A model generated the notes under the pieces. The model searched no databases. It was not told where the DNA came from and saw nothing but the letters and a program-made list of their open reading frames with translations. From Asterochloris sp. CNOR1 (Eukaryota > Chlorophyta > Trebouxiophyceae > Trebouxiales > Trebouxiaceae), in the NCBI GenBank assembly GCA_963969365.1, contig OZ017758.1, positions 868,001 to 932,000 of the forward strand: a stretch of 64,000 nucleotides of DNA. The letters are read 5' to 3'. Below are positions 3,601 through 62,596 of the stretch, piece by piece (the first letter of the stretch is position 1; the number at the start of each line of letters is the position of its first letter). The position numbers and the translations under genes were made by a program.

Positions 3601-6600
3601 GACCTTACTCACATTGCCCCCTGACGCTCCAGAGGACCCTCAGCAGCACTCCACAGCAGTCTCCACCATGATCGAGCCAGTGCTCTGCACTGCAGGCTGC
3701 GCCCTGCAGAGTCTGAGACACACTCCCAGGACAGCATCTCACCCGCCAGTGCATGTCACTGCAGCAGCCAACTCCCTGGTTGCTGTCACTGCAGGCGGCG
3801 TCCCTGCACAGACCAGGCCCAGCCTTAGAACAGCATCCCATTCAACCAATGCTGGTTACTGCAGCACTCACTCCCTGGTCGTCAATGCTGCAGGCGGCAC
3901 CCTGCAGAGACTGCAGGACAGCACCTCGCTTACGCAGCTACTGGTCACTACGGGCGCTCACTGCCTGGTCAGTGGTGCTGCAGGCGGCGCCCTGTGGACA
4001 CGCAGGAGTTTCCCCAGGAGAGCTGGTTTAACATCTGCATCCTGCACCAGAACCGCCTGGCCCACCAGCAGAACGCCAAGAACTGCATTCGAGAGGACTA
4101 CCTGGCGCGCTTCCTGGACCTGGTGCTGTGGGGCCACGAGCATGAGTGCGTCAAGGACTCCTGGGTGAGGTGCTGCTGGTGTCTCTAGTGTCTTCTGGCA
4201 ACTTGAGCTTACCCTCCACTTTGAAGGCCAAGGTCCTACAGGGCAAAGCACTACCCCTGGTGCTAGGGTAGTGCTTTGCCCTGTAGGACCTTGGCCTTCA
4301 AAGTGGAGGGTCTTCGAACGGGTGTCTTCAAACTGGTGGCCAGCCACAGAAACATGGTGCTGTGGGCCCATCAAGCGCCATTTCCTGCCCTGCCTGGCAG
4401 CAGCTGCCATCGATTTTTGTGTCCTGCAGCCTGGCTCACGCCTACTTGAAACTGACAGCCCCGTTGGGCCGCCGCCAGCTTACGTGCCTCCAGCAACAGC
4501 CTCCCTCTGGCCTGCAGACGTCTACCAACAACTTCACCGTCCTGCAGCCAGGCTCCTCGGTGGCCACTGCCCTATCAGAGGGGGAGGCCAAGCGGAAGCA
4601 CTGCTTTCTCCTTGAGGTCAACCGCGATGAGTGGCGCCTGGAGAGCGTCCCCCTGCGCACCGTCCGCCCCTTCCAGTTTGATTCAGTGAGAGGTGCCATG
4701 TGCCCTCTGTGCGGGTGCTGCAGGTGGCTCTGTCCCTCCTGGACTGGCTGCAGTTGCTGCTCTGTACATTTAGTGTTGTACCTGCACACGACTAAGCGCC
4801 TGCAAGGCCACAAGTGGCCATGAGGCAGGAGCCGATGCTTCCAGATGCTCGACACAGAGTAGCCTTGCTGCTGCTGTTGCCGTTCATCACAGAGCAGCTC
4901 ATGCAATGGCGCCCTGCAACTGGTCTTGCAGGAGCAAACGGACCGCAGCAAGTGGGCAATCGTGTGCACAGAAGCTGTTGCCCTGCTCTGCGGCTGAGCA
5001 ATAGGTGTTCCTGCCCTTATGTAGGTGGTCCTCAAGGAGCAGCTGGGTCTGGAGGAGGATGACCAGGCGGGGCTGGCCACCTTCCTGGAGCGGCGTGTGG
5101 AGGAGATGGTGCGCACAGCCAATGCGCGTGCAGAGACGCCAGAGGGGCGGGACCGCATGCTGCCCCTGATTCGCCTCCGGGTAGGCAAGGCATCCGACAG
5201 TATGTCTGCATGGCCTCATGTCGGCTGCTGGCGGGGGGTGTGCAGGGCGTCCTGCCGGGACAACCATGGTTGAGGACCTCTAAGAGCAGGGCCTGCATGC
5301 TGCGCCCTGTGGAGCAACAGCTGGCGCTGGCTCCAGGAGCCTACAGCGGCCGCGGGACCACACGGATATGTGGCCCCTTTCCTGGCTGAAGTAGAGACAT
5401 CTATGATAAACATTTATGAGAGCCCTTTGAAACCTGCAGCAAAAGCAGCACTGCTCTCACACAGTCTCCTGCCCTGACACCAAGAGCTCGGCTCCCTGCC
5501 CAGCTGTTGTAGTCTCAGCCCTGGCCCACAACCCTGGCCCACAATCCTGGCCCACCAGTGCCCCACCCACTGCAGGTAGACTACACTGGGTTCTCAACCA
5601 TCAACCCCCAGCGTTTGGGGCAGAAATTTGTCGGCAAGGTGGCCAACCCCCACGACATGCTGCTGTGGCAGAAGGCTGCTGTGAAGAAGGCCAAGGTGAG
5701 CTCTGCAGGCTGAATGTGCCGCGTTTTTGTGGAGGATTTGGTATGGAGCATGCACCAAATGTGACGCCAGGCAAGGGTGCTGCCAGCACCGTCCTAATCT
5801 CCACATCTCAAGAGCCACACAGGCAGCCCCCGGCTCTTGCAGCAAGGTGCTGGCCCCAAAGGAGGTGTCCCGGGGGACGTGAAGCTGGCTTGGGTGCAGC
5901 GCGGCACAACTGCGCACAGTCACACAATCGCCCCACCACACGGCAACAGGGAGCTGGCTGCAAGCATGCGCCCTGAGGTCTGTGGAGGCCTCTTGTGTCC
6001 TGCATGCCAGAGGGCACAGCCTGCCAGGGTGTGTCTGGTGCAGCCAGCCGCATCCCTGGGCAGTCACCAGCCTCCTGCAGGCTCCGCTGCCAGGGCGTGT
6101 CTGCTGCAACCACGTTCCTGGACGCTCACCTCTCTGTCTGCTGGAGTATGCCATGTGGCAGCGGGAGGGCTTGCAGAGCTGGCAGCGCCCCTGCCACCCT
6201 GTAGCGTCAGTGCAACACTCGTGTAAACTTCCCTTGGACTTCCCCCGCAGCACCCACTGACCTGCTGTGCCCTGCCTGCAGGAGGGTGCTATGCGCCAGG
6301 GGGCGCATGCAGAGCTGGCGGCAGGGGTGCGCCCAGAGGCCCTGGATGAGCGCCAGATCGAGGACCTGATTGGCGACCACCTGCCCCACCTGGAGGTGCT
6401 GCAGGAGGACGACTTGGCGGATGCACTGCACGAGTTTGTTGACAAGGTTGGCCCTCCCTGCAGTTGCTGATCGTCTGCAGAGGATGTGCAGGTGAAGCAT
6501 TGTGACTGCCACAGAACAACAGCCCTTCTCTCTATAACTGTCTGACAGCAAGCCAGCGATTGCCGCATTTGGACTTCAGCCTTGCTCTTGCAGTTTTGGA

Positions 6601-9600
6601 TGGATCAATCAGCTGCCATGGCCAGTTGCCTCGGGCCAGACTCTCACCAGGGTGCCCCACAGCCTATTGATTGCAACAGCGGGGCGGCTCATGTGAGATT
6701 TGCCACCCACCTGGCTGCATCCGCAGCGACCCAGTCTGCATCTCACACGGTCCGGTAGCTGCTCTGCTTTAAGGTGTCCCCATTCGCCTTACAGATAGAG
6801 ATGGCACCCCCTCCCTGCCTCCAACGCATGGCAGAGACCAGGAAGAGCCTGCCTGGGCCTACTTTCTGCCTGGCCCTGCAGGACTGGAGAGGGCCACCCT
6901 GTCCAGCTGCTGTGCTGCACGGCGGCTTGCAGGGATGCACCTGCACACCCATGTACTCAGACCAAATTGTTTTCCCTGGCCTTGCAGGACGAAAAGGCGG
7001 CGCTGTCCACCTGCCTCAATGCGCGGCTGCAGGAGTCCCAGAATGTGGCCAACCGCTCTGCAGATGAGCTGGCCGTGGGGGACAAGGGCTTTGCTGCCGC
7101 TCTGAAAGCCCGCCTGGAGAAGGAGTCCAAGCAACGGCCCAAAGTGGGCTGCTGTGGACATTTCTGTACATTGTGGGATTGGGTGTGGATATCTCCCAGC
7201 AGAGGCCTCGCGTGGGCGCCTGCACTGGGATGGGAGGCACAAGGCCAGCTGCTCGCCACACCTGCACTCTTTAGCCTCAAGCCACAATTGTTGCTGCAAA
7301 GGCATTCCAAGCAGATGCTCATGGGAGATGACTTTGACTGTCTGGATGGTAGCCTTCCGGGAACTGACATCGGAGCGCAGCGGCAGATGGCAGAGGCCCC
7401 TCTCACCAAAAGTCTATAGAAGAGGTTCGAGATGCATTCTCCTGTCTGGTGACTATGGATGCGAGGGTCGGCAGGCACCTGAAGCAGGACGGGCTGCATC
7501 AGAAAGGGCTCAAGCAGAGGGGAGAGCAGGTTGACTGACTGTGTTCAAGCCCTGCGATGCCAGACTTTTGCAATGGCCACTGCCTCACGTGGAGGCCTTC
7601 AGAGCTGCTTTGCAGTCGTCCAGGATGCCGCACCTTCTGCACATCACCCCCTGTGGCCTGCAGCGCGCCTGGCAGTAGCAGACAGGGGGCTCAGGCCACT
7701 TGAGTCCAGTGGCGCAACAGCTGCCTCTGCAACGAGCGGGAGGCTGGGGTTGCTGCCTCTGCAGGCATCGCCTTGCAGGGCGCCTGAGCTCTGCATGTGC
7801 GAATCAAGCAGCCCTGCGGACCGCCCCTGTTGCAGCTCGCGGCCTCCGCAGCCAGCGGCAGACAGAGCACTGGTGCCACAAGGGCCCCCTGGGGCTGTCC
7901 CACTCCCAAGGGACACTCTGACAGGGCTTCCTCCCTGCCCTGCAGCGCCCTCGCCAGCCGCAGACAGAGGACCTTGTAGAGCGCAGCGGGGCGGGTGCTG
8001 CGTCTGGGATGGATGTCGATGAGCTGGAGGACGACGATGAGGACGCTGCAGCACAGAGGATGCCCCCGCCTGGCAGGCGCGGACGCAAGTCCCAGGCCGC
8101 CCGCGGCTCCCAGGGCGCCCCGGCAAGCCGAGGTGCTTTGCCTCTTTGTGGGCCCGGGGTTGTCCCTGTGGCCAATACTTCACTAGCAAAGGGACTTTTC
8201 CTGTGGTTGACCCTCCATTAGCAAACCGGCAGGCAGGCAGGTAGGCAGCTGTGGCTGGCAGCAGGACGCTGCCTACATGGGTGCATCAGCCAGGCATCAG
8301 GGTGGCGGGTCTCAGGCTGCGCTGGCAGGCAGTGTTGGGCCTTTCAGGGGCTTGTTCAGTGTCCATACAGCTGGCCTCAGTCTCCTGCTGAAGCCCTCTG
8401 CCGGTCTTGCACACTGGCAATCATGCGGCAGAGCCCCTACCTTGTCACAGCAGACTGCCGCTGCATGAGCACCCTGTCAGCTGAGGTGCCTTGCACTGTT
8501 CACGCCACATTCAGGGGCCTGGTGCCTGCTGGCCTGCCTGCACAGCTGCCACGAATGGCGCTGCCAGATGCAGCACCCTCACACTGCTCCCCTTTCTATG
8601 CAGCAAGGTCCTGAGGAAAGGGGTAAGGAGGTGGTCAAGGCGTCCTGCATGTTTGCATTTCATGTCTTGGTCTACAGCAGTCTGCCTGGTTGCCTGCCTG
8701 CCTGCGCCAATGGTGCAGGAGCGCTGGGGTGTCTCTGCTGCTGGGCCACACGTATGCAGCGTCCCGCAGCAAACCGACTCTTGCCCATGTGCTGCAGCAG
8801 GACTTGACAAACTGTCATCAAGGTCGCCCATGGGAAGAGCATCCTGTGTGCAGGTGGTGGCCGGGGCGGGGCCCATGGGCGGCAGCGCACACTGGACGCC
8901 TTCCGCAGCCAAGGGGCCAGCGCAGCCGTCTCCAGCGCTGGAGATGACGATGACATCGACAGTGTCCCCCCTTCGCAGGTGCAGTAGCAAGCACTGATGG
9001 CTTGCCCACTGTGTCATGGCAGCAGTCCCTGCTGAGGTGGGAGCTGGGATGCCAATGTGCAGCCTGCAGATTGGCAGCAGGCAGTCAGGCTGGTGAGTGT
9101 GCTGGTGTGCACAAAACGCAGACTGAATGATGTCTTTAGTGGAACCATCTGTATCCCATGCACATCACAATATGGCTCACGTGATGACTGACATCTTGGC
9201 AGGCAGTGACACTCTCCCCACAAACAGTATGGCATCCTGAACAGGGGAGCAGGCAGAGGCTTGACTCTCATGCCCAGCTGCACAGCCTAAACGGCTCCTG
9301 CCGCCCGTGCAGAATGCGTCTTCATTGACCCCAGGCGGCAGCAGGGGGCGTGGCCGGGCCAGGGGAGCGGCAGCCGCAGGCAGCGCACGCAAGCCCCCCA
9401 GCCGCAGGGCAGGGCAGGCTGCTCAGCAGCGCCTGCGTGAGCAGGCCACCAGGCAAGTCTGCCTGCCATGCTGTTGATTGATCTTTGCTTTGGGGCCTTG
9501 CCTGGTGCTGTGTGCTGCCTGCATGGTCATGGTGTGCCAGTTTGTCAGTGCGGGAGGCTGGTCTGCGGGCAAGGTTGCCTGTGTTGTCTCACTGGCAGGC

Positions 9601-12420: not shown

Positions 12421-12658
12421 TTGTGGCTCAGGCCATCAAAGGCAGACTCCTGTCATATTGTCAATACTGATAGTCCACAGCCTTCTCAAGGACCACTCTT
12501 ATAATGCAAGCAGAGTCACAGGCTACTGTGATTGCATGCTGCGCTCATACACTGGCAGTTTGAAAGGCAGACGCGCTGCGCACGCCAGATGGAGCGCACA
12601 GACAACGGCATGTTTGACTTTGCTTGGAGCATCCAAGCTGGGAATTGCACTGATGAAG

Positions 12659-18300: not shown

Positions 18301-21300
18301 GTGCACGCACCAGGTAGCAGTAGGCTTTTGGCTTGCCATCCTTCTTGAGCAGGAAGAAGCGCACATCAGGGTTCCAGACCTCAGCCTGGCCATCGACAGC
18401 CTCCACAGTGATGCCAAAGAGGCGCTCAATGACCTGCAGCTATGTGTCCGCCATTAGCTGACTGATCATGATGTGGCGGCGTGATCACACAGATCAAAGT
18501 GCAGCTCGCAAGCTGTGTCAGTAAGGGCTGCAGCAAAATGCTCCCCTTTGCAGCACACCCCCGTCAAGCCGGCGGCGGCAGCACCTGTTGCTGCTGCTGG
18601 AGAACACTGCTGCCTGCCCTGCAACTTTGCCTGCTGTCAGGAGATCTACAACTTACAAAGTTGCCCTGAATGGGGCATGCCCTGCTTGCATGGCTGCCTA
18701 CACAAGGCTGGTACCAAAGTACGTAGCACGTGCAGCCAGCCCTGCCCATCGAGGAAGATCAGTGGGCACCACGAAGATCTGCAGCGCATCCAATTGCCTG
18801 TACCCGCCTGAGGCAGCCTCGAGCAGTTTTGCAGCTTCCACAGCTATGGCAGGGCCCAGCCCACCTGGAACAGGCCCTCCAGCACATTGGGCAGGCTGAA
18901 GTATGGGCGCAGCTGCTCATCGCTGATCTCATACTTGGCCTCCCGCAGCCGCTCTGCCCAGAAGGTCACGTCCCAGTGACGCACCTCCTCATTGAAGCCC
19001 TGCAGTATGAGGCTCATCATGCTTGCAGTCCATTGCCAGAAGATGACACATTGCAACTGCTGCAGCCCTGAAAGTCATGTCCCACTGGCACATGTCATCA
19101 CTTGAGGCCTGCAGCATGAGGTTTCATGGTTCCAGTCAAGCATTTCAAGTGCTGCAGCCTTTGCTTGTGTGGTCTCAGCAAGTGCAGCAAGGTGCCTGTT
19201 GGTTGGGCGCTGGTCTGACGCCAGCCCCAGCATTGTCGGCGTCAGCAGTGATGCAGCAAGGTGCTGACTGTGACGTCATCGGCAGCAGGAACAGCTGCAC
19301 ACGGCTACAGCAGCACATGTCTGTGAGGCCCACTACCGGCGACTGGAGGCAGCTCAGCCCACCTGCTGCCTGGCAAAGTCCTTGATGTCCTCCAGTTCCT
19401 GCTTAGCAGTGTCGAAGGATGCCTTGCGCAGGTCCTCCAGCAGGTGTTCAGCCTTGTCCAGGGTCGCCATCTGCAGTTATGCAACTGAGAGTTTCAGCAC
19501 TGAAGGTCCAGGACCCGCCACAGTGCGGCAGATGGCATGACGATGAAATTTACTGCTCCCAGGGGGGTGTCTATGTGAGAGAGGAAGACATGCAGAGGAA
19601 CCTGTCAGAAATTACATATGTAAAGAAGGACATGGCTCCGGAGGCACCGCATAGACATCTGACGTGTTACTCTCAGGTGAGCTCACCAGGCATGGACAAT
19701 GTGCTGAAGGCAGCTTGCAGGCCTGCTGTAGAGCACATGCCCACAGGAGGTGCCCAGCTCGACCAGAGGGAAGCAGGTGGGTAGTCTGATTGAAGTAAGG
19801 TGTGCTGCCCAGGTTTGCATAGGCAGCCCCAGCATGCTCTGCTGATGAAGTTGCCACATGCTGACAGGTGCGGACCAACAGGTATTGGCACAGCCGGCTG
19901 CACTGCGTGCTGCAAGCTGCCACACCATGCTGCCACAGGCGCCACGCAGCCCCTCACCTTCTTGGCCATGGAAACTTCTGCAAAATTGTTGTATCCCAGG
20001 AGCTTGGCTTTCTCCTGGCGAAGCGCCAGCGTCTTCTCGATGATGGGTGTGTTGTCAGTGGCACCAGAGGATGCCCTTGTCAGGTAGGCTCTGTAGAAGT
20101 CTTCTCTGAGCTGCCTGCAAGCACCCCACAGCGCAGTGTGAGCATCCTACAGCCCTGGCTCCTCCAGGCTCCTCGGGGTTAGGGGAAGAGGTGGGATGAG
20201 CTGGCAGCCTTCAGCAGCACAGGGGCAGAGCGGTGCAGCAGGTACGATGTGGGAAGGCCATGACAGCTGCCCAGAGTGCCCCCCTAAGGGAAGAGCTCGG
20301 GACAGACGCCTGCAGGCAGAGCCCACCTGTTCTTCCCGTGGGTCAGGATGGGGGAATAGGAGGGGAAGTCCAGGGTGAACTGCCACGGCCCCGCCTCAGC
20401 TGTGGCATCTGGGTGCCCCGCAGCCCTTGCCTGCTGTGCCCCCAGCTCCAGGGCACTAGGCGGGATCCCGTCCACCTCTGCTTTCTCTGCAGGTCAAAAG
20501 GGCAGGCAGCCTAACGTCGGAGTTCGCCAAGTGGACGTTGAGCTGCAGGAAGGGGTTCAGCGGCCGGCTGCACCAACACACAGCTTATGGCACACAGCTG
20601 CAGCTCCACTAGGTCAGGTGCTCACAAGAAGGAGCTGCAGGTCTAGACATGAGCTGCTACAGTGACAGCTGCGTTGTGTCAGGGCCAGCATGAGGAGAGG
20701 TGCAGCTCCTCACCTGTGATGAGGCGTTTGTAGGCCTTGGTGGCATCCAGCACGTTGTTGCCAAAAGTGGTGCTCAGCTTGGACAGCTCCTGCTGGATCT
20801 CATTGAAGCGCTCCTTGGCAGTGCCCTGCAGGCATAGTGGCACTGGACAGACGGAGCATGCAGCATGCTGCTCTACAGACTCATGGCCATGCAAGCCAAC
20901 AGCGGGAAGATCCATGACCAAAGGTCAATGCTGCTCAAGGTCCGTGACATGCCAGCAGCATACACGCTAAACCACAGTTACTGGGGCAAATTTAGCCCAG
21001 GCAGCCATGTGAGCACTTGCAGCAGCTTCTCCAGACAGCAGCCTGCCCAGGCAGCAAGGCTAAGTCATCTGGCTGCCCAAGACAAGCACTTGCAGCTATG
21101 CCCTTACAGCAGTTGAAGCTGCTCTTTGACACCTCCAGAGCCACCCCTGCCAGCATGAAATCCTCGGGCATTGACTCGAGCAGGCGCGTCGGGCAGGGCA
21201 CTGCGCCTCTGGAACGGCAGCAACGCTGGCAGTGTCAGCCAGCACATACCGCAGCCCCTATCCTGGCAGCTGAGTACCTCAAACTATATACCCTCCAGCG

Positions 21301-22919
21301 CTACCCTGCCAGCTCAAAGTTGACGAGCTCCCCTAACCACAACGCGCCTCTGGGCAGAGCTCTGGACTCGTCTCGCCATGGCCAATGCCATCCCTCCCAG
21401 CACAAAGCCCTTGGCCCACCTGGCACAGCAGACAGCAGCTCCACCAGCGCCTGGCATGGCAGCAATAGCAGAATGCAATATTTCCCACCTCTAGCGCCAC
21501 CCCTCCCAGCACAAAGTCCCTGAGCTCCCCCTCGACCACACGCTTCTGGGCCTCGCTGAGCGTGCCCCACAGGTCCCCCTCCCGGATGGCCCTGAAGGCC
21601 TCGTACAGGGGGCGGCTCTGCGACATGCGTAGGCCCAGCTTGACCTGCTCGGGCTGCACCTCCTCGTAGGCCTTGCGCAGGGGCTCGCTGTCCTTCACAG
21701 CCTGCAGCATAGGGTTGGCAGCGCTCCTGATGGGGAGGCAGTCTACTGCAGCCTCGCTGCACTGCAACAGTCGCATGCCTGCAGCAGCCTGAGCATTTCG
21801 GCGCAGGGAATTGCTGTGATTCATTGCCTGCAAGACATCATCCGCAAAAAGCTAGAGAGGAAGGCGGTGGACCACTGCTGACGTGCAGTGCAGCGCTGGC
21901 CATTGCATGGCATTATGCAGGACCTTTACAGCCTGCGGTCAGCACAGGCAGCAGCATGAGGGCTTCAGGCAGAGGCTGGGTGCAGGGTGTAGCTGCCAAT
22001 CCCTGCTCCCAGCCAGTTTCATCAGCAGCAAGTGGGATAGCAGGCTCTGTGCTGCAGGTCCTCATAAACCATCAGGCGCAAACTGGAGGTCTTGTAAGCA
22101 GCGCTCACCGTCTTTGACTGCCTACATACAAATTTAGGGGCAGCATGGCACTTTATCCAGGGAAGGAGAACATGCGTCCATCGAATCACAATGCCCTCAT
22201 GAATGGTATCATAAGCAGACCTTGAGGTGGGACACAGTGCCCCAGGTCTTGCTCAGCCTGTCCTGGATTCGTTCATAGGGGTCCAGCAGACCCTCCCATG
22301 TGGGCTGCACATTCTGCTCGAGCTCGTCCAGCTCAGAATTGAGCTCTGCAGGCCCAACCAGAGACACAATCTGGCAGGTGTGTATGGCTGCAATGTTGTT
22401 GTGCTAGCCAGCTCTGCAAGCTCAGGCAAGGCAGGGATGGCTGCGGCAGTCCAGACCAGTCCATAGCCTGAGGTGCAGGCAGCTGAGATGCAGGCATGAG
22501 CAGGATCCTTGCTAGGCTTCAGATTGGTTAGACTCACCGCTGAGCAGCTGCTGAATGCCGGGCACAACGTGCTCGGCCTTCACCTGATCATACAAGGGGA
22601 AGGACCCACTCTGCAGACCAGATACGCACATGTCACCATCAACACATATGATGGCACCCAGACAGCTATTAGGCAAACTCACATCCAAGAGTGGGTTTTC
22701 TGATGGGACAGCACTGGGATCTGCTGCCTGCTGCTTTGCCACCACTGCAGCGCTCATGGTCACTGCTGCTCTGCAGAACGTCCTCCTGGTGACGTGTGTG
22801 CTGGGGACAGAGGTCCAGGTCCGCAGAGGTGCCCTCCTAACTTGATGGCTCTGCTGTGAATATAGCACTGCCGGAGCCAAGCAGGGTGCTCTAAGTGACC
22901 TCTGGAGAAAGGCTGCCAT
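15317..22919 (-). CDS. M3-family oligopeptidase, organellar type
   Basis: This is a zinc metallopeptidase of family M3 (oligopeptidase A / plant organellar oligopeptidase), which degrades short peptides such as cleaved presequences. The first exon (22683-22919) encodes an Arg/Ser/Thr-rich leader ([13 protein letters not shown]...) followed by ENPLLD, which suggests import into plastid or mitochondrion. Next exons are 22538-22610, 22221-22345 and 21489-21701 ([29 protein letters not shown]), then [14 protein letters not shown] near 20800. The zinc site [11 protein letters not shown] lies near 17440-17470, with the third-ligand region [17 protein letters not shown] next to it. The C-terminal motif [18 protein letters not shown] (about 15800-15850) is followed by a last exon ending in [16 protein letters not shown] and a TGA at 15317. 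The catalytic residues seen are intact. An inner Met further along the leader could give a non-imported form. Confidence 0.93.
18970..19125 (-). repeat. Intronic copy of an oligopeptidase exon edge
   Basis: The exon edge encoding [12 protein letters not shown] (CTGCAG acceptor plus exon start, about 18975-19014) is repeated about 100 bp further into the intron at roughly 19076-19123. Both contain CCCTGCAGTATGAGG or CCTGCAGCATGAGG and a GTCA(C/T)GTCCCA block. Confidence 0.65.
21135..21535 (-). repeat. Exon-end fossils of the oligopeptidase
   Basis: The end of the exon at 21489-21701 encodes [12 protein letters not shown] before a GTGGG donor. Two related blocks lie downstream inside the intron: about 21388-21420 (CATCCCTCCCAGCACAAAG on the plus strand, against CACCCCTCCCAGCACAAAG in the exon) and about 21130-21175, where the minus strand still reads [14 protein letters not shown]. 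Real coding resumes at [14 protein letters not shown] near 20830. Confidence 0.65.
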
Positions 22920-22999
22920 GCGATGCATCCAATGTGTTTGACCTGCCTGGCCAGTCAACTCAAAATATAGTTGCAGATTGTGCACTTTTGTACAGCAGA

Positions 23000-50500: not shown

Positions 50501-53500
50501 GCTGTATGTTAATATCTGGATGCCGCTGGTGGGGTCCATCAGAAGGAAGCCTCTGCAGCAGAGTGTTGCTGCATGAAATGGTTCTGCTGCGCACCAAGCC
50601 GCTGCCGACTTAAAGGCCACCCAGCACTCTGAGGGGACTGCCCGCTTGCGTGTTGTTGAGCAGCAGCACAGTCACAGTGCAGTGCTCTGGCTTGCCTTTC
50701 AGAGAGCAGCACCAGGGTGACAGTGTCCTTGATGTCAACTATCGTGGGCGTATTGAGGCTGCTCAGGCTGTAGATGCAGCATTGGGTGGACGTGGCCACC
50801 ACCAGGTGGCCGTACCCTGCAGGCAGAGGCTGCCGCATCAGAGTGATGGGCACCAGGACAATCCCAACGGCCCGCAGCGCACCCCGGAGCATAGCTGTCC
50901 AATGCTGTTGCAGGTGCTGGAAGGGACAGGACGGCACATTTTGCCGAGCCACACTGGGGAAACAGAGCACCCCAGAAAGCTCATGTTACTGGAACCATCC
51001 AAGATGCCAATTCAGACAGACAATGAGTCATGGCCACCCTGCATGCACAGAGGGCAGTAGTGCGTCCCTTGATGTCCCACCAACGGCCATCTTATGAATG
51101 CAAGTAGCTCGCCAGCACATCCTGCACCAGTGCTGCTTCCTGTGGCATCAGTGGGAGGGCGCTTGTTCAAGGCAGCTGGGACACGGCAGCCCATCGTGCA
51201 CTGTGCATCTGCACAGAAGTGCCTGCTAATTCTCAGAGTGGCTGGACAAAGCGACTCACCAATGGCCATCTTGATGACTCTATCCCTGAAATCGAGGTCA
51301 TCCAGAGTGCCGTCCACCATGTTGCGCACCTGAACCTGTGTGCCAGCCGTCTGGACCGCCCGCATCGCATTCCATTCTGCACAGGCGCACCACCCTCAGG
51401 CGCAGAACCATCTGCATGGCGTGCCCTGGTATCCTGTGCAGCACTCACTGCGCACTGTGTTGAGGGAAAGTTTTCCCGATCTGGTGGCACAGCAGGAGCA
51501 GGAGCTATGGCCTCAGCCCCACTATGCTCACCACCTGTGCAACCCCAAAACATGTTCAGCATCTGTGCAGCCACTTGTGCTCACGGGACTAGTCTTCTCA
51601 AGGCCAGCTGGCGGCAGCAAGATTTGCTGGGGGTCTGGCTTACTCGCTGAAGGCTTGCTGGTGCTGCTTCAGAGAGCAGCTTGCAGCAGTGGTGCCCCAC
51701 CAGGACCTGCCTCACCTGCTGCTGCGCCCACCACCTGGGCAAAGCAGAGCTGCCCGTTGCCGCCGCAGGCCGCCAGCTGCGTCCCATCTAGCGTCCACGC
51801 AATGCTCAGCAGGGAGCCAGTCTGCGTCGTCTCCTGCAGGGGGCAGCAGCTGCCTCAGAGTAAAGCTGTCTTGCCTACTGTGGGTCCATGATTCATGTGC
51901 TTTTTCTTGCCACAAGACATAGACAAGCTAGCCTGGCAACCTCTGGTCTGACCAACCATGCACGTCACAGAGAGGTCAATGAACCCCCAGCCAGCCTTGT
52001 CTCTCTTGCTTCCTCATTCATGCCTCCTCATGTATGGAGATGTGCAGCAGGGCTGCCGCTGCTGGCCAGCTAGGACGCTGAGCCTCCCTGAATGCTGATG
52101 CTGGGATCTCTGCAGTAAGGATAACTTGGCAGCTGGTGCAGCTTATTGCACACCTTCAAGACGCAATATGAAGCCTCACCCAGGTCTCAATACAGCAGCA
52201 CCTCACATTCAGCCTGCTTGCTGAGCCCCAGCCGCTGCAACTGCATCCAGTCTGAAGAAGAAGGCATAGAGTGGCCAGCAATGCACCAATATGTAGCTTG
52301 ACCGCTGTCGCGTCCATCTCAGCCGTGCAGCTTGCTGCTTACCCTGGAGCTGCAAAGTCCAGGCACCCTCACAGTGTCACCAGATCAGTGCTGAGCTGAA
52401 GCGCTGGCCCAGCGGCCTGTGCAGCGTGCCGCGCACCTTGCAGAAGGCTGAGCCTGAGCGCCCGCACAGCGCCACCGTGTTGAAGCTGCCCACAGCAAAT
52501 AGGTCTGAGCTGGGGCTCCAAGCCACAGCAGTCACCACATGGTCCTGAGGGGCGCTCTGGTACAGCAGGCGCCCCAGGCTGTCCCACACCTGCATAGGCA
52601 CTGAAAGTGGCTGTAGCGGCTGGACCCCGCGGCACGCTGTACAGCAGGCGAATCTGGCTGCATCACATCTGCAGCTCAACAGGCACCAATGCTGGCCGCA
52701 GCCCCCTGACTGCACACTCCAACGACAGCCACACCAGGTGCTGGACTGCGGGGCGTGGCGTCTGCTGCCCAAGCAGCAGACAGAAGGCTCAGCCAGCCTG
52801 CGCAACCATGCATTCATAGATTTTGCAGCTGGCTCGCAGGGCGCAACTGCCACACAAGCAGGCTTGCACCCCCTGGACAGCTATTGGGCCTGTCAGAGAG
52901 TGCCCATCGCTGTCAGCAGCATGACTTCATCCAGCCAGCGGTCTGGGATTGCATCTGTGTGCTCGCAGTGCAAGTCGCAACAAATCTTGCTTCAGTCCTT
53001 CCGGCAATCACATCAACAGCAGCAAGCATTGCATCATGCCTGTCCCACCTTGTACTTGCAGTCCTCTCCGCCTGAGACGATGAGGTCGGTCACGGGGCTC
53101 CAGTCAGCCTTTAGCACGGTGCTGCTGTGCGCCTTCCAGGTGACTGTGCTGCTGCTGGGGCCGGCCTGCAGCGCCTTGATGGTGATGTCTGTGCCGCTGC
53201 AGTAGAGGACCTGCAGGCAGACAGCAGGCAGCAGGTCGAGGAGGTGGCAGTTGGCCGAGTGCCCATGACAGCAGTGCGAGATCCGAGCTGCGACCTGCAG
53301 TACAGCACATGAAGGCAGGCAGCAGCTTGATTTCAAGGGAGTGGCAGTCTGCTCAACACTATCACCTGAGCTGTGTGCAGACAGCTGTCAGCAGCCTGCA
53401 GAGTGCAGGCAGCGTGGCGGCCCTTCACATTAGCAGGCTTCACTCCCGGCCTTAGCGCCTCATGCCGCGACCTGTGCGCCTGTGCAGAAATGTGCAGGTG

Positions 53501-54388
53501 CCACACTTGGCGGGTAGGCTGCTGACGGGGCGCATGACAACCTGCTGCCATGTCCAGGGGAAGCGCACCTGGTCAGAGTCTGGGCTCCACACTGCGGTAT
53601 AGATCGGGGTGGTCTGAGTGGCGAGTGTAGAGCGTAGCATGCCTGATCGAGACCACACCTTGACCAGCCCGTCCTCCCCAGCAGTGACCAATGCTGTGCC
53701 TGCAGCCGCCACACGTGTCAGGCCAGCTGCCGGGTTACAGCCATTGCAGTGCTGCTGTGCATCTGGTGCTGTGCACACCAGCAAAGCCCTGTGACTGCAG
53801 GGGGCTGTCCCTGCTGTCGTGGCGTGGTGCAGCCTGCAGCACCTTCGAAGTTCCAGCGCAGAGAGATGACAGCTCCTGTGTGGGCCTCCACAGATTTTTC
53901 GACGCGCCCTGCCCTGCTGATGATCTTGAAGGAGCCTGCAGCGAGAGGTGGCTGTCACGGCTGTGCTGCACGTTGCCCAGCTGCTGCACCTGTGACAGGC
54001 TGGTGCTAAATGGACTGTCAGCTAAGGCAGGGAGTGCAGAGGGCTCACCATCGGTGCAGGAAACCGCAAACATGTCAGCGCCAGACCCTGGCTGGCTGCG
54101 AGAGGTCGCTGGCAGCCAGTGCAGGTCTGTGCAGAAGGTCGGAAGGGTGCACACCTGCAGAAGCAGGGCTCACAGGGATGTGAGACCTGCACAGAAGCAG
54201 AATTGCATCATACCAAGAACATGTATAAGCCTGGGGCTGCATACCTGTCCCATGTGCTCCCCCATGGTGTTCCACTTTTGCATGGTCTGATCATCGCTGC
54301 AGCTGAGGAGGCCATCACTGCTCCACCCCACAGCTGTTGCCAGATCCCTGTGCACCTTGAGTTTTGGGTGGGAGACCAGCATCCTCAT
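47589..54388 (-). CDS. IFT80: Intraflagellar transport protein IFT80
   Basis: This is a component of IFT complex B, needed to build cilia. The ATG at 54388 opens [33 protein letters not shown], a WD40 blade matching the IFT80 N-terminus. Further blades follow in order: [13 protein letters not shown] (about 54120), [16 protein letters not shown] (about 53650), [12 protein letters not shown] joined to [11 protein letters not shown] (about 53050 and 52570), [20 protein letters not shown] (about 51750), [14 protein letters not shown] (about 51270), [17 protein letters not shown] (about 50790), [20 protein letters not shown] (about 50510) and [15 protein letters not shown] (about 49650). The C-terminal TPR-like part includes [20 protein letters not shown] (about 47800-47860) and ends at a TAA at 47589. 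Nearly every diagnostic segment of the family is present, so it looks functional. Confidence 0.95.
52555..52690 (-). repeat. Duplicated IFT80 exon edge
   Basis: The plus-strand block TACAGCAGGCGCCCCAGGCT then GTCCCACACCTGCA (52561-52594) is the acceptor edge of the exon encoding [12 protein letters not shown] copy at about 52640-52672 reads TACAGCAGGCGAATCTGGCT then GCATCACATCTGCA. The period is about 79 bp. Confidence 0.7.
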
Positions 54389-54631: not shown

Positions 54632-57600
54632 AATGGCAAGTGCCTCTGTCCAGCATGGCCAGGCGGATCTGCTGCAGCATGGGGATGGGGAAGGCATTAA
54701 TGAGCCGGCCGTTGCATCAGACGGTGCCCCCAACCCTGTGCTAGAGCAGAGACAGCCCAAGAAGGCATCAAGGGCCACAGAGCCTGTGTCCGACCCCGCT
54801 CAAAACGGAGATACACATGCCAGCGAGGATGGGTTGAGCTCAGACAGGGGTGAGCAGGGACCAGCATCACCATGGCACAGGCAGCAGATCGGCATTCACT
54901 ACGCATGTGGCACAGCAGTGGTGTTGAGAGTTGCCGCTCCAATGTGTGTGAGGAGAGGCGCCAGCTGGGTCGGGTACTTCACGTGCCTGCAGGATGCCCA
55001 AATCAGGTGCTTTCAGGCTGCTGTCTGATTATGAAGCTGCTGACAGCCAATCTGCCGCAATTCATCGCTTCACATCAGAGGGATCTTGTTCCTCCACACT
55101 TTGATTTTGAGGTGTGCCTGGGGCATGCCCACGCCATGTTGATTTCTGGCTTGCCATTCAGTCGCTCTACCCCTGATGGACGCAGCTCAGCATATGAGCC
55201 TAGAGTACATTCCGTGTCGTTATGCTTGACTCATCTCCAGGAAACCTCCCCTGCGGAGGAATCTGCGTTGCAGGGGCCGCCACTGAAAGCTGCTCCTCCG
55301 CCCTTGCTGAACACTGTGCACAGCCTTCTGCTGACTGCACGTCATCTGCATGCTGGGCGTCTCCAGTTGCATTCGCCTGCAGAACCCTGGACCCAGTGGT
55401 GTCGCTGCAGGCTGGATGCTGACCCCTGGCACCCATGTGCATGCCCTGACTCCTGCCCTTCCGTGTCCCTGCTCCTCGCAGGCAGGAGTGAGCATCTGCA
55501 GGGAATGGTATGAAGCAATGTCAGTCCTGTACTACAAGCCCGTCAATGCCACACCTAATCTGCAGCAGCACGCTTGCTACCCGCTGTGCAGCAGGCGTTG
55601 CCACCGAAAAGCTCAATCTCAATATCTCTCTGCACCTGCTCAGCTGCTGCTTCGCTGAGTAGGATGAATACAGTCACGAGTCAACCCATGTCGCACAGCT
55701 CTGGCAGCACGCACTGCTGAAGAAAGCGGAAGGCATACTAGCGTCTGCATGCTCCTGCTTGTGTCTGCAGCTGCAGGCGCCGCTGACGACGCACCCTCAA
55801 CTGACAGCAGGAATGTTGCAGCAGCGACCCTGCAGCCATGCCCATCCTCTCTGCTGCAGCCGCTGCTCAGGAGAAGCCTCAGCCAGACAAGCCATCAAGC
55901 GTCTGCCACCACCCAGGAGCAGCCATGCCAACCCTCTGCTGCAGGCGCTGCTGAGGATGAGCCTGAGGCTAAGGCCGTGGAGCCCTGGCAGCGGCGGCTG
56001 TACTTTGTGCGCCTGCCCAAGCCCCAGCAGGACGACCACAGCACCGAGCTGCGCCAGCTAGAGCAGGAGCTGGAGGCCTTCAAGACGCAGACGCAGCTGC
56101 TCAATGAAAGCATCAACATCCGCAAGGTGCGCTGTGTTCACTCTACTGAGATGGCATGGGCTGAGCCTTCTTGAATGCCAGCTCAGATGCTACACTATCT
56201 GTTGGCTCTAAAGGCACCAAGTGCTACGTAGAAAGCAGGTGGCCAACAGTGTGTCCAGTGGTCGTGATGACCCCTGTGCTGAGGGATTCAACTATGGAGA
56301 GAGTGCATCACTGCTTCGCGCCACTCACTTAGCAAGATCTGCGCCTGCTGTACCAGCTGCACAGAGCCTCTGCTTGGCCAGGATGTGTCCCAATTGCTTC
56401 TCAAATGTTGCACTAGCTGCTGCCAATTGATTTTGCATTCAAGCTGGTGCTGGCGGGACAGTAGGCAGACAGTTGTGTGCATCTATAGTGGACACCCTTT
56501 GTGCTGCATGGGGCGCCATGCACCAGGCCCTTGCAATGCAGACTTCACGAGGGACACCTGGCATGACATGCTGCAGATGGCGCGCGAAAACGCGCGCGCC
56601 AATGTGGCGGAGGCTCGCCGCAACTTCCATGAGGCGCGTGATGGGGAGCAGGCCAAGCTGGCAGAGATGGAGCCTCTGCGCAAGGCCAAGGCTGGGGACC
56701 CCTCACGTGTGCCGCTGACCCAGCTGGCAGAGTTCAAGGACCTGATGGTCAAGACTGAGGCTGAGCTGGACCAGCTGGTGGGCTGCTGGTTGAGTTGCAC
56801 CTTACTTTGTGAGGTCTTGTCGGCAGTCAGTTGGGAGAGATACGCCTGGCAGGTCCTGCGAAGCGGCAGCCCCTGCTGGTAGAATTCAGGGACCTGATGA
56901 GGCTGGACTGGACCAGTGGATCGGGAGCTGGGCTAAATGCCAGAATACATGAGGCACTGCTCACCCCTGCCTTTGCACCACCACAGCTTTTCAGTCCTGC
57001 AGCTGGGTTGCTTCGGCCATTCGTGTAGTGGACGGCACCCCTTGGGATAGTTTGTCTTGCTGCAGCACATCTCCTGCGCAGGGGTGCAGGCATCTGCACT
57101 TAGGGCAGGCTACCCACGACAAAGCGCGGCTGCCAGCAACCTCTTCACTGTCTACGCTGCAGGTGGAGCAGCGCCCAGGTAGTCTTCTTTGGAGAAGGTC
57201 ATCCTCAGCTAGCAATCCCCTTGTTCACCCTGCAAGGGGCCATGATGAAGCAGGGCCAAAGGACTCTCTAAGTACCCATCAAACCCTCAGGCTTGCATGC
57301 TAATTTGCCGGCACCTGCAGGTGGTCGACATGGAGTATCGCCTGAACCATGAGAGCATACCCCTGAACGAGGAGAAGCAGATGGTGCGCGACATCAAGCG
57401 CCTGCACTCCCAGCGCCCACGGGTGCGCCAGTTTGAGGCGATGGCAGCGGAACAGGAGCAGACGCGGGCAGCCGCCAGGGCCGCCCCCCAGGCGGGGCCC
57501 ACCCTGGGGGAGATGGAGCAAGAGCGCAAGGTGCGCCGTTGTGCAGGCCTGAGGCGGCCGTTCGCAGAGATGCTCTTTGAAGTCAGGGGGGGCCTCTTCA

Positions 57601-60600
57601 AAGTCATGAGGGACATGGGGAGGGATGGGGGCCCCATGCACCTGGTGTAAGGAGTAAGTGGGAGCTATGGGATACTGCAGACATGTGTGGTGCAAGGCAC
57701 CTCTCGGAAGTCCTGCTGGGGGATGGAGGAGCAGTCCTGTCACTGAAGTTGCAGCATCCTTTTGTTTTTTGGTGTCAGGAGCCTCTTGTAAGTGCTGGGG
57801 ACGATGGAGCAGGTGCACGATGTCACACAAAGTCTTAGGTTTCAACATGGGCAGGGTAGCGCAAGAGGCCAAGCCAGTGGGTGTCAAGAGCTTGCTTGCA
57901 GTGCATCTCTAGGAACGAGGGCGACATGTGGGCTTCATTCCTTACTTCTGTCCATGAGAGGGCTTCTGTCCAGAACTGCTGTGCTTGCGTGGCATAATTT
58001 CTCCCTCTGGAGGGCTCAGTTGTTGCAAAGGACGTCAAAGCATTTGCGATATGGGCCTGCCCCTTTGTTGTGGGGCTTTGCGCCTGGCTGCTCGCTGCTT
58101 GCTTGCAGCTGCTGACGTAACGCCCCTTGCACCTACATCTCTGCCCGCAGATGTTGAAGGAAGCAGAGCAGATATAAAAGTCTGCCTGCTGCCAGGCAGG
58201 TGGGCCTCACGTCTCTCCTTCTTGCCTGCAGTTGCTGAAGGAAGAGAAGGAATTGAAGCGCCAGATCCTGGGCAAGTATGAGGCAGAGGCCGATGACCTG
58301 GATGCCAAAGTTTCCAAGGCCATTGTGAGTGGGTTGCTGCCGGCTGCTTCGTTCCATTTGTCTGTGCCAACAGCCTTGCCAGATCCATCAGAACACTGCA
58401 TGCCACAATTTGACAACACCAAGGCAAGTCTGCTGTGTCTGGCGTGCAGGCCACTGCCTGCAGGGCGGTGGTGACTGGGGCTGCCTGTTAGTCAGGCCTG
58501 CAGTGAGTCGGGCGTGGCCTGCTGCTGGGTGGTCTGCATGCTGGGGCTGGGTCCAGCCAGGCATGATCTGGGGGCCCAGTCCCTTCAGCTGGTGGGAACG
58601 AGGCTGCATGTATATTCAGCCTGCCTTCTGTTGGGTCCCCACATGTCTGTTGGCCAGCCATGTGAGCTGCAGAGGGGCTTCCCACACGCCTACTTGGCTC
58701 CTGCCAGGGTGCCAGGGGTCCTGTAGGTCCCAGACCTGCTGCCAGGCATGCTTGGCGCTCATCGGAAGTCACTGGCCCACTGGGACAGCATGAGGGGCCC
58801 GCCCTGACCTGCTGCCAAGCGTGGGCGGCGATCATCTCATGTCAATGGGACCCACTGGGACACCATGAAGGGCCTGCCCTGCACCCCTGCAGGAGGAGCG
58901 CCGCCGCGTGAAGGAGCTGCAGGACGAGTGCTACCAGCGCCTGCGAGAGACGCAGAAGCTGTCGCGCTCCAAGGCCAATGACTACTATGACAACAGGCGC
59001 TTCTCCCAGAAGGTATTCCCCAGTCCAGGCACCCCATTCATCTCTCGCTTGCAGCTGCCTGACCCGGGCAAGGAGGCCAGTGGAATGCCTGCTCGGTGCG
59101 GTGCTGATGTCTGCCACTCCCCTCTTGTGTCGGCTGCATCAGGTAGAAGCCGTCCTGCATTGTATGCAGTGGGTAGAAGCGGGTTTCGGCGAGCAGGCCA
59201 GAGGTCAAGGCCTTGCTGTGCGCGGGGCAAGCACTGGCAGCCTGACTTCCTGCAGACTCCCCCCACATTTGCTGTCTGCATCTTGCCCTGTCCGTGACAC
59301 TTCGTCATGGCCTGCAAATCGGCCCACCCCCAATCTCACAGTTTGCAGGAATGGGGCAGTGAGGAGCCCACAAGCTTACCCCTTGCTGACTGTGGACTGA
59401 CAGCCGCCTGAGTTGGCTGCACTCTGAAAAGTGAAATGCATGCCTCTGGCACCTTTGTGATTGACAGCCCTCTGGTTGGCAGCCATGCTTCTGAAGACAG
59501 ACAGACCCCTGCAGGTGCGCGCTGCTGTTCGCGCCGGGGACCTGGAGGGCGCCCGTGACATGTGCAGCGAGCAGGTTGGAGATGCAATCGGCGAGCTGGC
59601 TCGCAGTCCGGCCTTGTGTGCGTCCTATTTTGAGCAGTGGGAGCAGCAGCGGGCGCGCCCCTTCAGCGTGGGCCTGGACGATGGCTTTGATGGTGAGCTG
59701 ACTTTGAACAGGACAGCACTGCCATATGATATGTGGGCATGGCCCTTGGTGCCAGCTCACTCAGTGAACAGGGGGTGTGGCCAGCATGTGGCAGGCTGAC
59801 ACCTTTTCAACACACATATGTCTGGAGTTTGTATGGGATTAGGCTCCCAAATAGTGCTAAGCAGCTCAGACCAGCTGCCAGGCACCAGCACCTGTGCTGG
59901 TCTTCAGCTCTGCTGCAGTGTGTCAGCTGGCCTCACCATCTCACATGCCCCTATCTTGTTGCGTGTAGACATGGCAGCCCCTGATAGCAGCAGCAAGGGC
60001 GCGCGAGCAGGCAAGGGCGCCAAGCGCTCTGGGCAGCCCCCTGTGGAGCCAGGGAAGTCGCGAGCTCAGATGATCATTGCGGCTGCACTGAACGAGGCAA
60101 AGGAGGAGCTCTCGCGCTCCAAGAGCAATGCCCTTCCAAGTGAGCACCTGCTGGAGGCTGGCACTGGCAGGACATATCCATGCATCTACATGGAGGTACA
60201 AAAGGGCCTAACATGGCTGCGTGGCCCAGCATAGCATGCTTTGATCAAGCAAAGGAGGACCTCCTGTGCTCTGATGCATGTGCATGAGCCAGGCAGCTCT
60301 GGATGGGAGACACGTCAAATTTTGCATTGTCATGCAATCTGCTCAGCCTAGACCCAGGGGAGTGCAAATTTGAGCCTTAGGGGAGGCACCAGATGGGTGG
60401 CACTTTGGGGAACTGGCTGAAGCACACACATCCTCCTGTGCGGCACCTCACACTGACTGAACCTGCCTGTTCTGTGCACTGCAGGCGCACCATCTGGCAG
60501 TGCAGGGCAGGATGAGGGTGGCGGCGCCAGCGCCAGTGGCTTGGCCAGCCGGGCCTCCAGCAACGGGGAGGAGCCCAGTGCTGGCGCAACAGGTGGGCAC

Positions 60601-62596
60601 AGGCAGACAATTGTGAGGTGCAGAGTGAGCCACTGGCGCCAGACATCAGCCAGGCTGCCTGCACGCATCCCTTTGTGTGCAACAGGCTCGCTTGCACCCC
60701 CGGTCAGCACAGCCCCAGCGACAGCGAGAAGTCCTGTTCTGGTGTTGCAGGAACCACTGCTGCCTGCAGTGTGTTTGTGTGCCTATGGCCAGCGCGATCT
60801 GCTAGGTTGCTTGGTTACAAGCACATGTGTCCTGACGGCTGTTTGCTGCTTGCAGCAGTGTGCATCAAGCTGTGAGCGTGAGACATCCCATGTACATGCG
60901 GAGGAGCTAGCATTTCGCTGGTTTGCTCAACCTGCACGCAAGTTCTGGCTGGTCTTCCATAGCAGCCACAGCATGGTCCAGTATCTATCTATGTTTTGTG
61001 CTGTTGTGCGACAACACACACTCCTGCCCTGCAGGTTCTGCAGGTTCTGCAGCCACAGGGACCTATGTGCCCCAGCAGAAGGCCGCTGCCAATGTGGTGC
61101 CTGGGGCTGACCCTGCAGCACCGCCAGCGGCCAAGCCGCCCCGCCAGGCCAAGCGCCAGGCTCCTGTGGTGGTGCCGGAGGTGGACAAGGCGGAGCCATT
61201 TGTGCCCCCGCCGCGCCCGAAGCCCAGGGTGCGCAGCAATGCCCGGCAGCCATGACTTCTGTTCCTTCTGCTGCCCCTCCCTTGCCAGTTCTGCCCTCTG
61301 CAAGGCCATCTGATCGAGTATATTGTTGTTGGGGACCAAGTGGCTAGCCTCTGGTGCAGCTGGCTGCCTCGAACACTCTGTATCAGCAAGCACTCCTGTG
61401 ACCTGGCCCTGTGGCCATCTTGTCCATTCGCTCAGCCCACTGCCCAATCTTTGCTGCAGGCCGAGGAGGCAGCTGACCCCCGGCAGCAGCAGCAAGAGGC
61501 CCAGGACGAGGCGGCCCGGCGCAAGCAGCGTGCGACCGAGCGGCGCGAAAAGGACCGCCTCAAGCGTCAGGCCAAGGCGGCCACGTTCAAGGCAAAGCAG
61601 GCGGCAGAGCTGGTGGCCCAGGTAGGTGCAGAGGAGGCCACCTGGTCCCTGTTGGTGTGTGGCTTAGGTTCAGAGCTGTGTTGCCGGGATGTCAGTTGTC
61701 AGCCAAGACGGCCTGGTCCAAGGCCTGGCATGCAGTAGAGCTGGTGCCCCAGCAAAGTTCACCTGTCCCCAGGTCTGGGCTCAGAGCTGCCTTCCCGGCA
61801 TTTCAGTGGTAGGCAACAGCAGCGGTCGGCAAGGTGCGGCAGGTAGAGCTGGTGGCTCAGGCGTGCCTGTGTCATGCAGGCTGCTACTTGCGGCTGCCCT
61901 GTGATTTGTCTGCCATTCTAGAAGTCCCACCAATCTGCCTGCAGCCAGGAGCTGATGTGCTGGTGGAGAATGCCAGCAAGACAGGGAGCAGCTCCTACAG
62001 CCCCGTTCACATGCTGAGGATGTCTGCTGATGCGCAGACTGCTCTGCTAACTGCTATAAACTGTCAATCCAACCACATATGGCCCTCAAGCCTGGTTGCT
62101 GATGCTGGGGCGCCCAGTGCCGTGCATTGGGGCCCCCTTATTCATGAACATTCTCACAATGCTTTGTCCTGCCCTGCAGGCTGCTAAGGAGGCTGTGAGC
62201 ACAGGCCCTGGAGGCCTGGCAGAAGCCGAGTCCACCCTGAGCTTTGCAGCCGAGCCCGCAGCAGCAGCCATCTCCTCAGCCTCAGGCGTGGTAGCTGGAG
62301 CTGTCGGGCCAGTGCTGGAGAAGGGGGCGGAGTCAGTCAAGCAGGCTGCCTCGGACGCAGTGGCCAGCGTGTCACGGGCAACAAACAATGCTGGCGTGGG
62401 CGCCAAGCAGCAGCGTGCCAGCAAGCCTCGGAAGGAGCAGTTCCCTGTTCAGAAGCCGAAGGCGCGCAAGCCTGTCCCCAAAAAGGATCTGCAGCAGCAG
62501 GGGCTAGCACTTGTCAAGCAGTACCAAGTGCCCCTGGTGGTAGCAGCAACCATCCTGCTTCTCGCTGTCTTTTGCAGCATCGTCTTCAAAGTTTGA
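54632..62596 (+). CDS. Proton pump interactor (PPI1)-like coiled-coil protein
   Basis: Plant PPI proteins bind the regulatory tail of the plasma-membrane proton ATPase and sit on the ER or plasma membrane through a C-terminal anchor. The ATG at 54632 opens an acidic, disordered region. Conserved blocks follow in separate exons: RRLYFVRLPKPQQDD and a coiled coil (about 55990-56130), REN-type helix ARANVAEARRNFHEA (about 56590-56640), the family signature MEYRLNHESIPLNEEKQMVR (about 57330-57390), LLKEEKELKRQILGKYEAEA (about 58231-58290), RRRVKELQDECYQRLRETQK (about 58900-58960) and FEQWEQQRARPFSVGLDDGF. An Ala/Pro/Lys-rich linker and a Lys/Arg/Glu coiled coil (about 61460-61621) come next, and the end is a single membrane helix, VVAATILLLAVFCSIVF, with the stop at 62596. 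The family and topology are clear; binding a proton pump here is inferred. Confidence 0.85.
56725..56930 (+). repeat. Copy of a PPI-like exon end in the next intron
   Basis: The exon end ending at 56777 contains AGAGTTCAAGGACCTGATGG with GGCTGAGCTGGACCAG. A copy in the following intron at about 56881-56920 reads AGAATTCAGGGACCTGATGA with GGCTGGACTGGACCAG. The offset is about 152 bp. Confidence 0.75.
58734..58891 (+). repeat. Two-unit intronic tandem repeat reaching an acceptor
   Basis: Units at about 58734-58805 and 58806-58881 share GACCTGCTGCCA(G/A)GC, CCCACTGGGACA and a following CATGA(G/A)GGGCC. The second runs directly into the CCCCTGCAG acceptor of the exon starting at 58892. Confidence 0.75.
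61570..61862 (+). repeat. Exon-end array after the PPI-like coiled-coil exon
   Basis: The last 52 bases of the exon ending at 61621 (with GCGGCAGAGCTGGTGGCCCA) recur in the following intron at 61701-61752 (GCAGTAGAGCTGGTGCCCCA, about 40 of 52 positions identical by eye) and, more diverged, at 61811-61860 (GGTAGAGCTGGTGGCTCA). The period is about 109 bp. The intronic sequence between copies is also related (CAGAGCTG(T/C)(G/C)TT, then CCGG(G/C)AT(G/T)TCAG). Confidence 0.85.

Follow-up and report, generated by a model that had tools for sequence, protein, structure and literature searches.

Tandem genomic duplication is an established source of new introns (PMC3443670; PMC4974935). The model of PMC3443670 postulates that a duplicated exon segment with an AGGT becomes a new intron whose donor and acceptor lie at the same position in the two copies. 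PMC4974935 describes a tandem duplication over one intron-exon boundary of the potato RdRp gene, in which the splicing signals came from the parental junction. Here we analyse a stretch of 64,000 nucleotides (the window; G000:C13:868001-932000) from the green alga Asterochloris sp. CNOR1, containing among others the genes for MRE11, oligopeptidase A and IFT80. A fair share of the introns in and around the window hold ancient, degraded copies, arranged head to tail, of a few dozen bases from the end or the start of the adjoining exon. Intron lengthening is usually ascribed to transposons or to indels that cannot be traced. In these genes it is directly visible where the added intron sequence came from: beyond chance, roughly one tested exon edge in seven has a recognisable copy of itself alongside. 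Coordinates are positions within the window unless a contig is given.

The analysed region is a continuous 264 kb, i.e., the window and 100 kb on each side of it, in an assembly of 56.4 Mb in 21 contigs. A gene finder self-trained on this region gave 39 genes with 587 introns, and 222 of the 626 exons, those of 60 bases or more with a high coding score, were taken as the confident set. In the edge test the 50-base exon end is compared with the adjoining intron, using unrelated introns as control, and 2.5% of the edges are expected at p ≤ 0.025. The last 50 exon bases resembled the following intron at this level in 17.2% of 209 donors (z > 4 in 27). Among 208 acceptors, 15.9% showed such a resemblance between the first 50 exon bases and the intron before them (z > 4 in 24). 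The first-pass annotation had named a lack of excess over shuffled introns, or equal similarity to unrelated introns, as refuting its proposal; the pattern survived the check, and the exon-edge copies in the neighbouring introns are real. Three controls stayed at background, each with 1-3 cases at z > 4: the far exon edge (2.4% and 2.9%), the exon interior at bases 51-100 (3.0% and 2.5%) and the reverse complement (1.9% and 2.9%). The similarity is centred on the junction. For donors the sliding profile gives 20.3% at -20, 17.6% at 0 and 3.7% at +20 (n = 187), and for acceptors 18.1% at 0, 16.5% at +20 and 1.6% at +60 (n = 182). Windows at confident junctions reach 15.6%, against 7.9-11.5% in intron interiors, 6.1% in exon centres and 3.5% in intergenic DNA.

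The amount of near-tandem similarity was measured by banded local alignment at offsets of 30-400 bases and compared with six control offset bands. There were 172 pairs at a score of at least 100 (control mean 22.7, so that about 13% of them are expected by chance), 98 at a score of at least 120 (control 2.7) and 49 at a score of at least 150 (control 0). The excess is greatest at offsets of 60-120 and small past 400. A 40-kb sample of another contig, C2, gave 18 pairs against 1-3 at four control offsets, and at offsets of at least 80 these were 12 boundary pairs, one intron-only and one exon-only. The flat control offsets, the unrelated introns and the far edges rule out mere CTGCAG composition as the explanation. 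When pairs were shifted circularly against the annotation the excess was modest, 118 boundary-straddling pairs against 88 ± 6 and 106 exon-with-intron pairs against 77 ± 6, because this null moves whole arrays; the duplication event itself was modelled by the generative simulations and the length fit described below. A shared period of 90-110 bases had also been proposed. That interval holds 28 of the 172 pairs, the majority lie at 40-200 in one broad hump, and the hump stands while the fixed period does not.

The score ≥100 pair listing for the window holds 37 pairs, 36 of them within it. By our own reading 28 of the 36 pair an exon edge or an exon piece with an intron, three are intron-only, three pair an exon with mainly exon, and two touch solely 2-base predicted exons that are probably false. 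Tandem Repeats Finder reports eight arrays in the window. At least one pair with a score of at least 100 is found in each of the eight genes where the first-pass annotation had seen arrays, namely MRE11, the oligopeptidase, the kinase, the DCN1-like gene, the pseudouridine synthase, the GTPase, IFT80 and the gene at 54.6-62.6 kb (putatively PPI-like); none is found in the uroporphyrinogen decarboxylase part at about 38.4-43.1 kb. The arrays and copies are as follows.

3681..4007, plus strand: MRE11 acceptor-edge array of four units spaced about 90-99 bases, the last of which includes the real CTGCAG acceptor and the first 24 bases of exon 3984-4164 (score 362, offset 100).
4384..4555, plus strand: MRE11 acceptor-edge copy with 38 exon bases (score 101, offset 116).
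6134..6322, plus strand: MRE11 acceptor-edge copy with 41 exon bases, 77% identity (score 133, offset 138).
6864..7030, plus strand: MRE11 acceptor-edge copy with a decoy CTGCAG and 43 exon bases (score 123, offset 106).
18945..19137, minus strand: oligopeptidase A acceptor-edge copy with 55 exon bases (score 190, offset 108).
21039..21551, minus strand: oligopeptidase A donor-edge copies, 63 exon bases with two intronic copies (scores 159 and 197, offsets 350 and 194).
25502..25779, minus strand: kinase gene (Pfam kinase domain), array across the donor and acceptor edges (score 178, offset 113).
26463..26747, minus strand: kinase gene, donor-edge copy with 75 exon bases (score 120, offset 191).
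32997..33331, minus strand: acceptor-edge copies within 30.7-33.8 kb, the first exons of a gene model that is probably a fusion of several genes (score 157, offset 143).
35371..35568, plus strand: DCN1-like gene (Pfam cullin-binding), predicted exon of 27 bases whose two flanks both recur in the intron (score 244, offset 103).
37975..38304, minus strand: pseudouridine-synthase part (Pfam), acceptor edge of exon 37718-38026 with 52 exon bases, and its intronic copy (score 238, offset 178).
44159..44425, plus strand: YqeH-like GTPase, donor-edge arm (47 exon bases) paired with an acceptor-edge arm (53 exon bases) (score 103, offset 121).
45058..45443, plus strand: GTPase gene, array that is intronic except for a doubtful 2-base exon (scores 126, 114 and 188, offsets 101-245).
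52322..52476, minus strand: IFT80 donor-edge copy with 40 exon bases (score 101, offset 93).
53189..53348, minus strand: IFT80 acceptor-edge copy with 22 exon bases (score 133, offset 99).
53799..54023, minus strand: IFT80 donor-edge copy with 32 exon bases (score 104, offset 147).
55745..55990, plus strand: gene at 54.6-62.6 kb, acceptor-edge array with 46 exon bases (score 213, offset 85).
56711..56934, plus strand: gene at 54.6-62.6 kb, donor-edge copy with 67 exon bases (score 141, offset 152).
58729..58903, plus strand: acceptor-edge array with 11 exon bases, the top-scoring of the eight Tandem Repeats Finder arrays (offset 73).
61566..61860, plus strand: donor-edge array at a doubtful predicted exon end (score 170, offset 132).

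The identity of the first seven of the genes named above is supported by structure matches and Pfam. The IFT80 prediction matches a solved structure over nearly its full length (E 3e-229), a 691-residue piece of a fused model matches that of oligopeptidase A (E 1e-243), and residues 1-529 of the MRE11 model match residues 1-379 of a solved structure (E 5e-65). Pfam supports the DCN1-like gene (cullin binding), the YqeH-like GTPase and the kinase, and reads the gene at 36.8-43.1 kb as a uroporphyrinogen decarboxylase fused to a pseudouridine synthase, the latter being its low-coordinate half. The gene models have faults: exons are missed or invented, some of the genes are run together, and several exons of 1-9 bases are doubtful. 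At about 3129-3218 an exon of MRE11 was probably missed; we take its protein to resemble the part of known MRE11 that follows the nuclease motifs. The window yielded no match in Rfam at gathering thresholds. Its G+C content is 55-62% per 2 kb, and PMC6652019 gives the Asterochloris glomerata genome as 56 Mb, with a G+C content of 56-62% in 98% of it and nine introns per gene. The splice consensus taken from the models is CTGCAG/G for acceptors and AG/GTGAGC for donors (the slash marks the junction). The acceptor is very strict region-wide (T 0.88, G 0.95, C 0.96), and exact (CTGCAG)3 occurs 24 times in the genome.

Ninety-two of the pairs with a score of at least 100 span a single boundary, i.e., the head-to-tail unit contains one exon-intron junction. 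Fifty of them lie at donors and 42 at acceptors, so that the pattern belongs to both the 5' and the 3' exon edges, as had been claimed; in eight the other arm also contains exon. The median arm is 77 bases for acceptors and 87 for donors, made up of 32 and 42 bases of exon and 41 and 44 of intron, respectively. The identity of pairs is mostly 65-80%, and in the single-boundary pairs that between exon and intron is slightly higher beyond 20 bases. The intronic copies contain decoy splice sites. GT is intact in 22 of 46 donor copies, which is about the neutral expectation, AG in 30 of 41 acceptor copies and TGCAG in 22 of these. The distance from decoy to real site is a multiple of three in 27 of 75, i.e., there is no frame preference.

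Four of the arrays were used as queries in a genome-wide search for further copies, one that skips very common words. The arrays at 35371..35568, 37975..38304 and 58729..58903 each gave a single locus and no further copy, and the fourth, in MRE11, matched copies of that gene which have the intron as well. This fits duplication at the DNA level at one locus and not dispersed insertion. Dispersal in the manner of introners was dropped as a candidate, since in the 264 kb introns of different genes gave just five matches, of 19-26 bases at E ≤ 1e-3, and form no shared family.

The copies are old. Identity exceeds 0.85 in 17 of the 172 pairs, some of them exonic, against 28-30% in simulations of steady formation, and the process has therefore slowed or was a wave. 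The MRE11 locus (846-9000) offers an internal clock, resting on this one gene, because decayed intron-bearing copies with 67-83% identity are found elsewhere in the genome.

C3:9770-18490: decayed MRE11 copy at 9.8-13.1 kb with pieces to 18.5 kb, near the contig end.
C14:112472-114161: decayed MRE11 copy.
C18:445-1162: decayed MRE11 copy, near the contig end.
C9:67631-67806: decayed MRE11 copy.

The C3 and C14 copies carry the 3645-4032 array in collinear form, and a tree of its units clusters units 1 and 4 by position (support 0.83-0.995); the array is therefore older than these gene copies. Branch lengths were estimated from a three-way alignment of the functional gene and the two copies (1,390 columns, poorly aligned windows dropped). 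The intron branches are 0.20 for the functional gene and 0.17 and 0.15 for the copies, and the exon branches are 0.085, and 0.20 and 0.25. The functional introns have evolved as fast as the copies and the exons more slowly, so the introns are neutral and the exons constrained. This pattern argues both against conserved functional decoys and against hypermutation of the copies. For repeat-induced hypermutation there is, moreover, no overwhelming excess of C>T or G>A, and the intron branches, in MRE11, are clock-like. On the C3 branch C>T leads the intron changes (33 of 127) without dominating them, and the other branches show a mixture of changes. The scarcity of young copies and the nearly flat codon positions had raised the idea that the copies were born with about 22-25% errors; it was dropped on the MRE11 clock. 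No decayed genomic copy was found for IFT80, and the oligopeptidase region 18488-18622 has only a 135-base match, 84% identical, at C4:2327639-2327773. Separately, the MRE11 intron after exon 3984-4164 contains an inverted repeat at 4211-4311, with a minus-strand self-match of 93%, which looks younger than the tandem copies.

How often a pair takes in an exon edge depends on the unit size. At a score of at least 100 the ratio of boundary to intron-only pairs is 22:12 at offsets of 40-80 and 108:8 at 80-400, the chance share over all offsets being about 16 boundary and 4-5 intron-only pairs. Two-copy pairs at offsets of at least 80 give 82:7, and with confident exons only, offsets of 80-400 hold 67 boundary, 41 uncertain, 8 intron-only and 10 exon-only pairs. 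Random duplications simulated at present intron lengths give ratios of 0.9-1.9, and 3.4 for an older wave. In the length fit, which uses the dependence of the ratio on unit size at offsets up to 300, ancestral intron lengths of 100-160 bases, fixed or spread, fit better (logL -51.6 to -55.6) than all present intron lengths (-65.5 to -73.9). The reading we prefer is that introns were about 100-160 bases long when the duplications took place, in which case geometry would yield the ratio as well as the way it changes with unit size.

We propose, with a probability of about 0.6, that old tandem duplications caught an exon edge, that splicing kept the outer junctions and that the introns were lengthened. 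Tandem duplications of about 50-200 bases within genes would have taken in one exon edge and the adjoining intron, often so because the introns were probably short, about 100-160 bases, relative to the unit. Splicing may then have retained the outermost junction, i.e., the first donor or the last acceptor. The duplicated exon edge and its splice site would become intron and decay about neutrally, each event lengthening the intron by one unit, and the conserved exon arm would keep edge pairs detectable later. A selective filter may also have preferred short exon pieces, because with a long piece the decoy would equal the real site in strength. Growth of introns by tandem duplication across exon-intron boundaries, one half of what the first-pass annotation suggested, fits the data well. 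The median length of introns with one edge array is 393 bases (n = 77) against 219 (n = 501) for those with none, it being noted that long introns offer more room for matches. In the neighbourhood, gene g1 (G000:C13:778124-782275) contains partly tandem exon-plus-intron units, a multiplication of a whole intron; five compared intron pairs in it are 83-87% identical.

Several observations weigh against this proposal. The acceptor exon pieces at confident exons have a median of 32 bases (interquartile range 24-41, n = 21), against 62-69 by random placement, and something besides random placement therefore filters them; the donor pieces, 52 against 64-67 (n = 29), are less narrowed. Over all boundary pairs the exon-intron identity (0.743) is not above that between introns (0.754), unlike in the neutral simulations, and the transition/transversion ratio of the pairs is low, 0.66-0.67, where equal scoring gives 0.88 for the MRE11-C3 introns. 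The nine introns that carry arrays at both ends have a median length of 239 bases, not longer than the rest, and they outnumber the 3.8 expected among the 587. Local similarity is also found away from the edges, in 6.6% of intron middles compared with the remainder of the intron in either direction (n = 121) and in 7.9% of interiors at least 200 bases from any edge. In MRE11, units 2 and 3 do not group cleanly in the unit tree, and the pairwise alignment with C3 gives equal identities for exons (0.759) and introns (0.753). As to ancestral length, the fit for present introns below 400 bases is almost as good (logL -56.6 to -61.4), and shortness is therefore favoured, not forced. Introns between two confident exons are now rarely below 200 bases (n = 87), and the gene models behind the boundary classes are self-trained.

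A different explanation, which we consider possible though unlikely, is that the junctions themselves are local hotspots of duplication, through exon-edge chromatin, R-loops or the copying of junction fragments. Acting on donors as well as acceptors, such a process would place a copy of about 30-60 exon bases, with a comparable length of intron, in the intron, and would tentatively be a main source of intron sequence. It would account for a similarity that is highest no more than about 20 bases from the junction and drops on both sides, for the narrow acceptor exon pieces, and for the low figure of intergenic windows (3.5% against 15.6% at junctions). However, the bias grows with unit size, as geometry alone predicts, the interiors at least 200 bases from any edge hold local copies too (7.9%), and a search confined to sequence gave no molecular trace of a junction-directed mechanism.

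The preference for edges could also result from plain decay, if duplications occurred everywhere in genes at present intron lengths and intron-only pairs have since become undetectable, leaving those anchored by a conserved exon. The neutral evolution of the functional MRE11 introns and the fair fit of present introns below 400 bases to the size dependence speak for this, and a still older simulated wave lifts the boundary ratio to as much as 8.7. That wave, however, leaves a median of 13 intron columns at an identity of 0.685, where the medians of the observed single-boundary pairs are 41-53 intron bases, with an identity of 0.72-0.76 up to 100 bases from the junction. Simulations with milder ages yield ratios of 1.2-3.4 against the observed 108:8. 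This explanation is disfavoured and seems to us rather improbable.

It is very unlikely that the intronic copies have been retained as regulators of splicing. The intact AG in 30 of 41 acceptor copies and TGCAG in 22, together with a raised identity at -5 to -1, would agree with such a role, but alignment on CTGCAG-like strings may by itself lift the identity at acceptors, and the MRE11 introns diverge at the rate of the decayed copies. Decoy splice sites, which had been suggested to feed alternative splicing, are present, while the sequence signs of their use are missing: donor GT survives at a neutral-like 22 of 46 and 27 of 75 distances are multiples of three. The suggestion was dropped on the neutral donor decay and the lack of a frame preference.

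The birth of introns, the other half of the original suggestion, by duplication of an exon segment with the donor of one copy joined to the acceptor of the next, is not supported and for detectable ages largely refuted, since in introns of at least 60 bases, comparing the surroundings of donor and acceptor at an offset equal to the intron length, identity is flat over shifts of -25 to +25 and there is no donor-acceptor register; very old births would be traceless. The two consensus sequences, CTGCAG/G and AG/GTGAGC, could indeed share one site. Looser tests on introns of at least 300 bases (p ≤ 0.025, 2.5% expected), which we grade as weak, gave 4.6% for exon end against intron end (n = 109) and a somewhat raised and unaccounted for 9.6% for the first 50 exon bases against the first 150 intron bases (n = 104).

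If the proposed growth of introns by edge duplication is true genome-wide and in relatives, it would become possible to measure how fast introns grow, how large the units are and what becomes of duplicated splice sites, and the annotation of such genomes would have to handle many decoy junctions. No described genome with recurrent exon-edge arrays was found in the literature, mainly open-access, as judged by titles and the openings of abstracts.

Compared with the known systems, the introns analysed here resemble intron-creating tandem duplication (PMC3443670) in that a head-to-tail duplication within a gene doubles the splice sites and splicing resolves the outcome; they differ in that the register is absent and existing introns lengthen. 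The potato RdRp duplication (PMC4974935) is alike in crossing one boundary, but it is one recent case that made a new intron, whereas here dozens of old cases are seen at donors and acceptors and no new intron has been shown. A 24-base exonic tandem duplication in fission yeast with introns across the copies (cited in PMC4974935) is similar in that the inside of the intron consists of tandem copies; that unit is exonic and short, whereas ours is part exon edge and part intron. Introners (PMC9860276) are comparable as a large-scale change in intron content but are dispersed similar elements, whereas here, in the 264 kb, the longest match between introns of different genes at E ≤ 1e-3 is 26 bases. 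Tandem duplication within genes is thus known, and it is the scale and the bias towards exon edges that look new.

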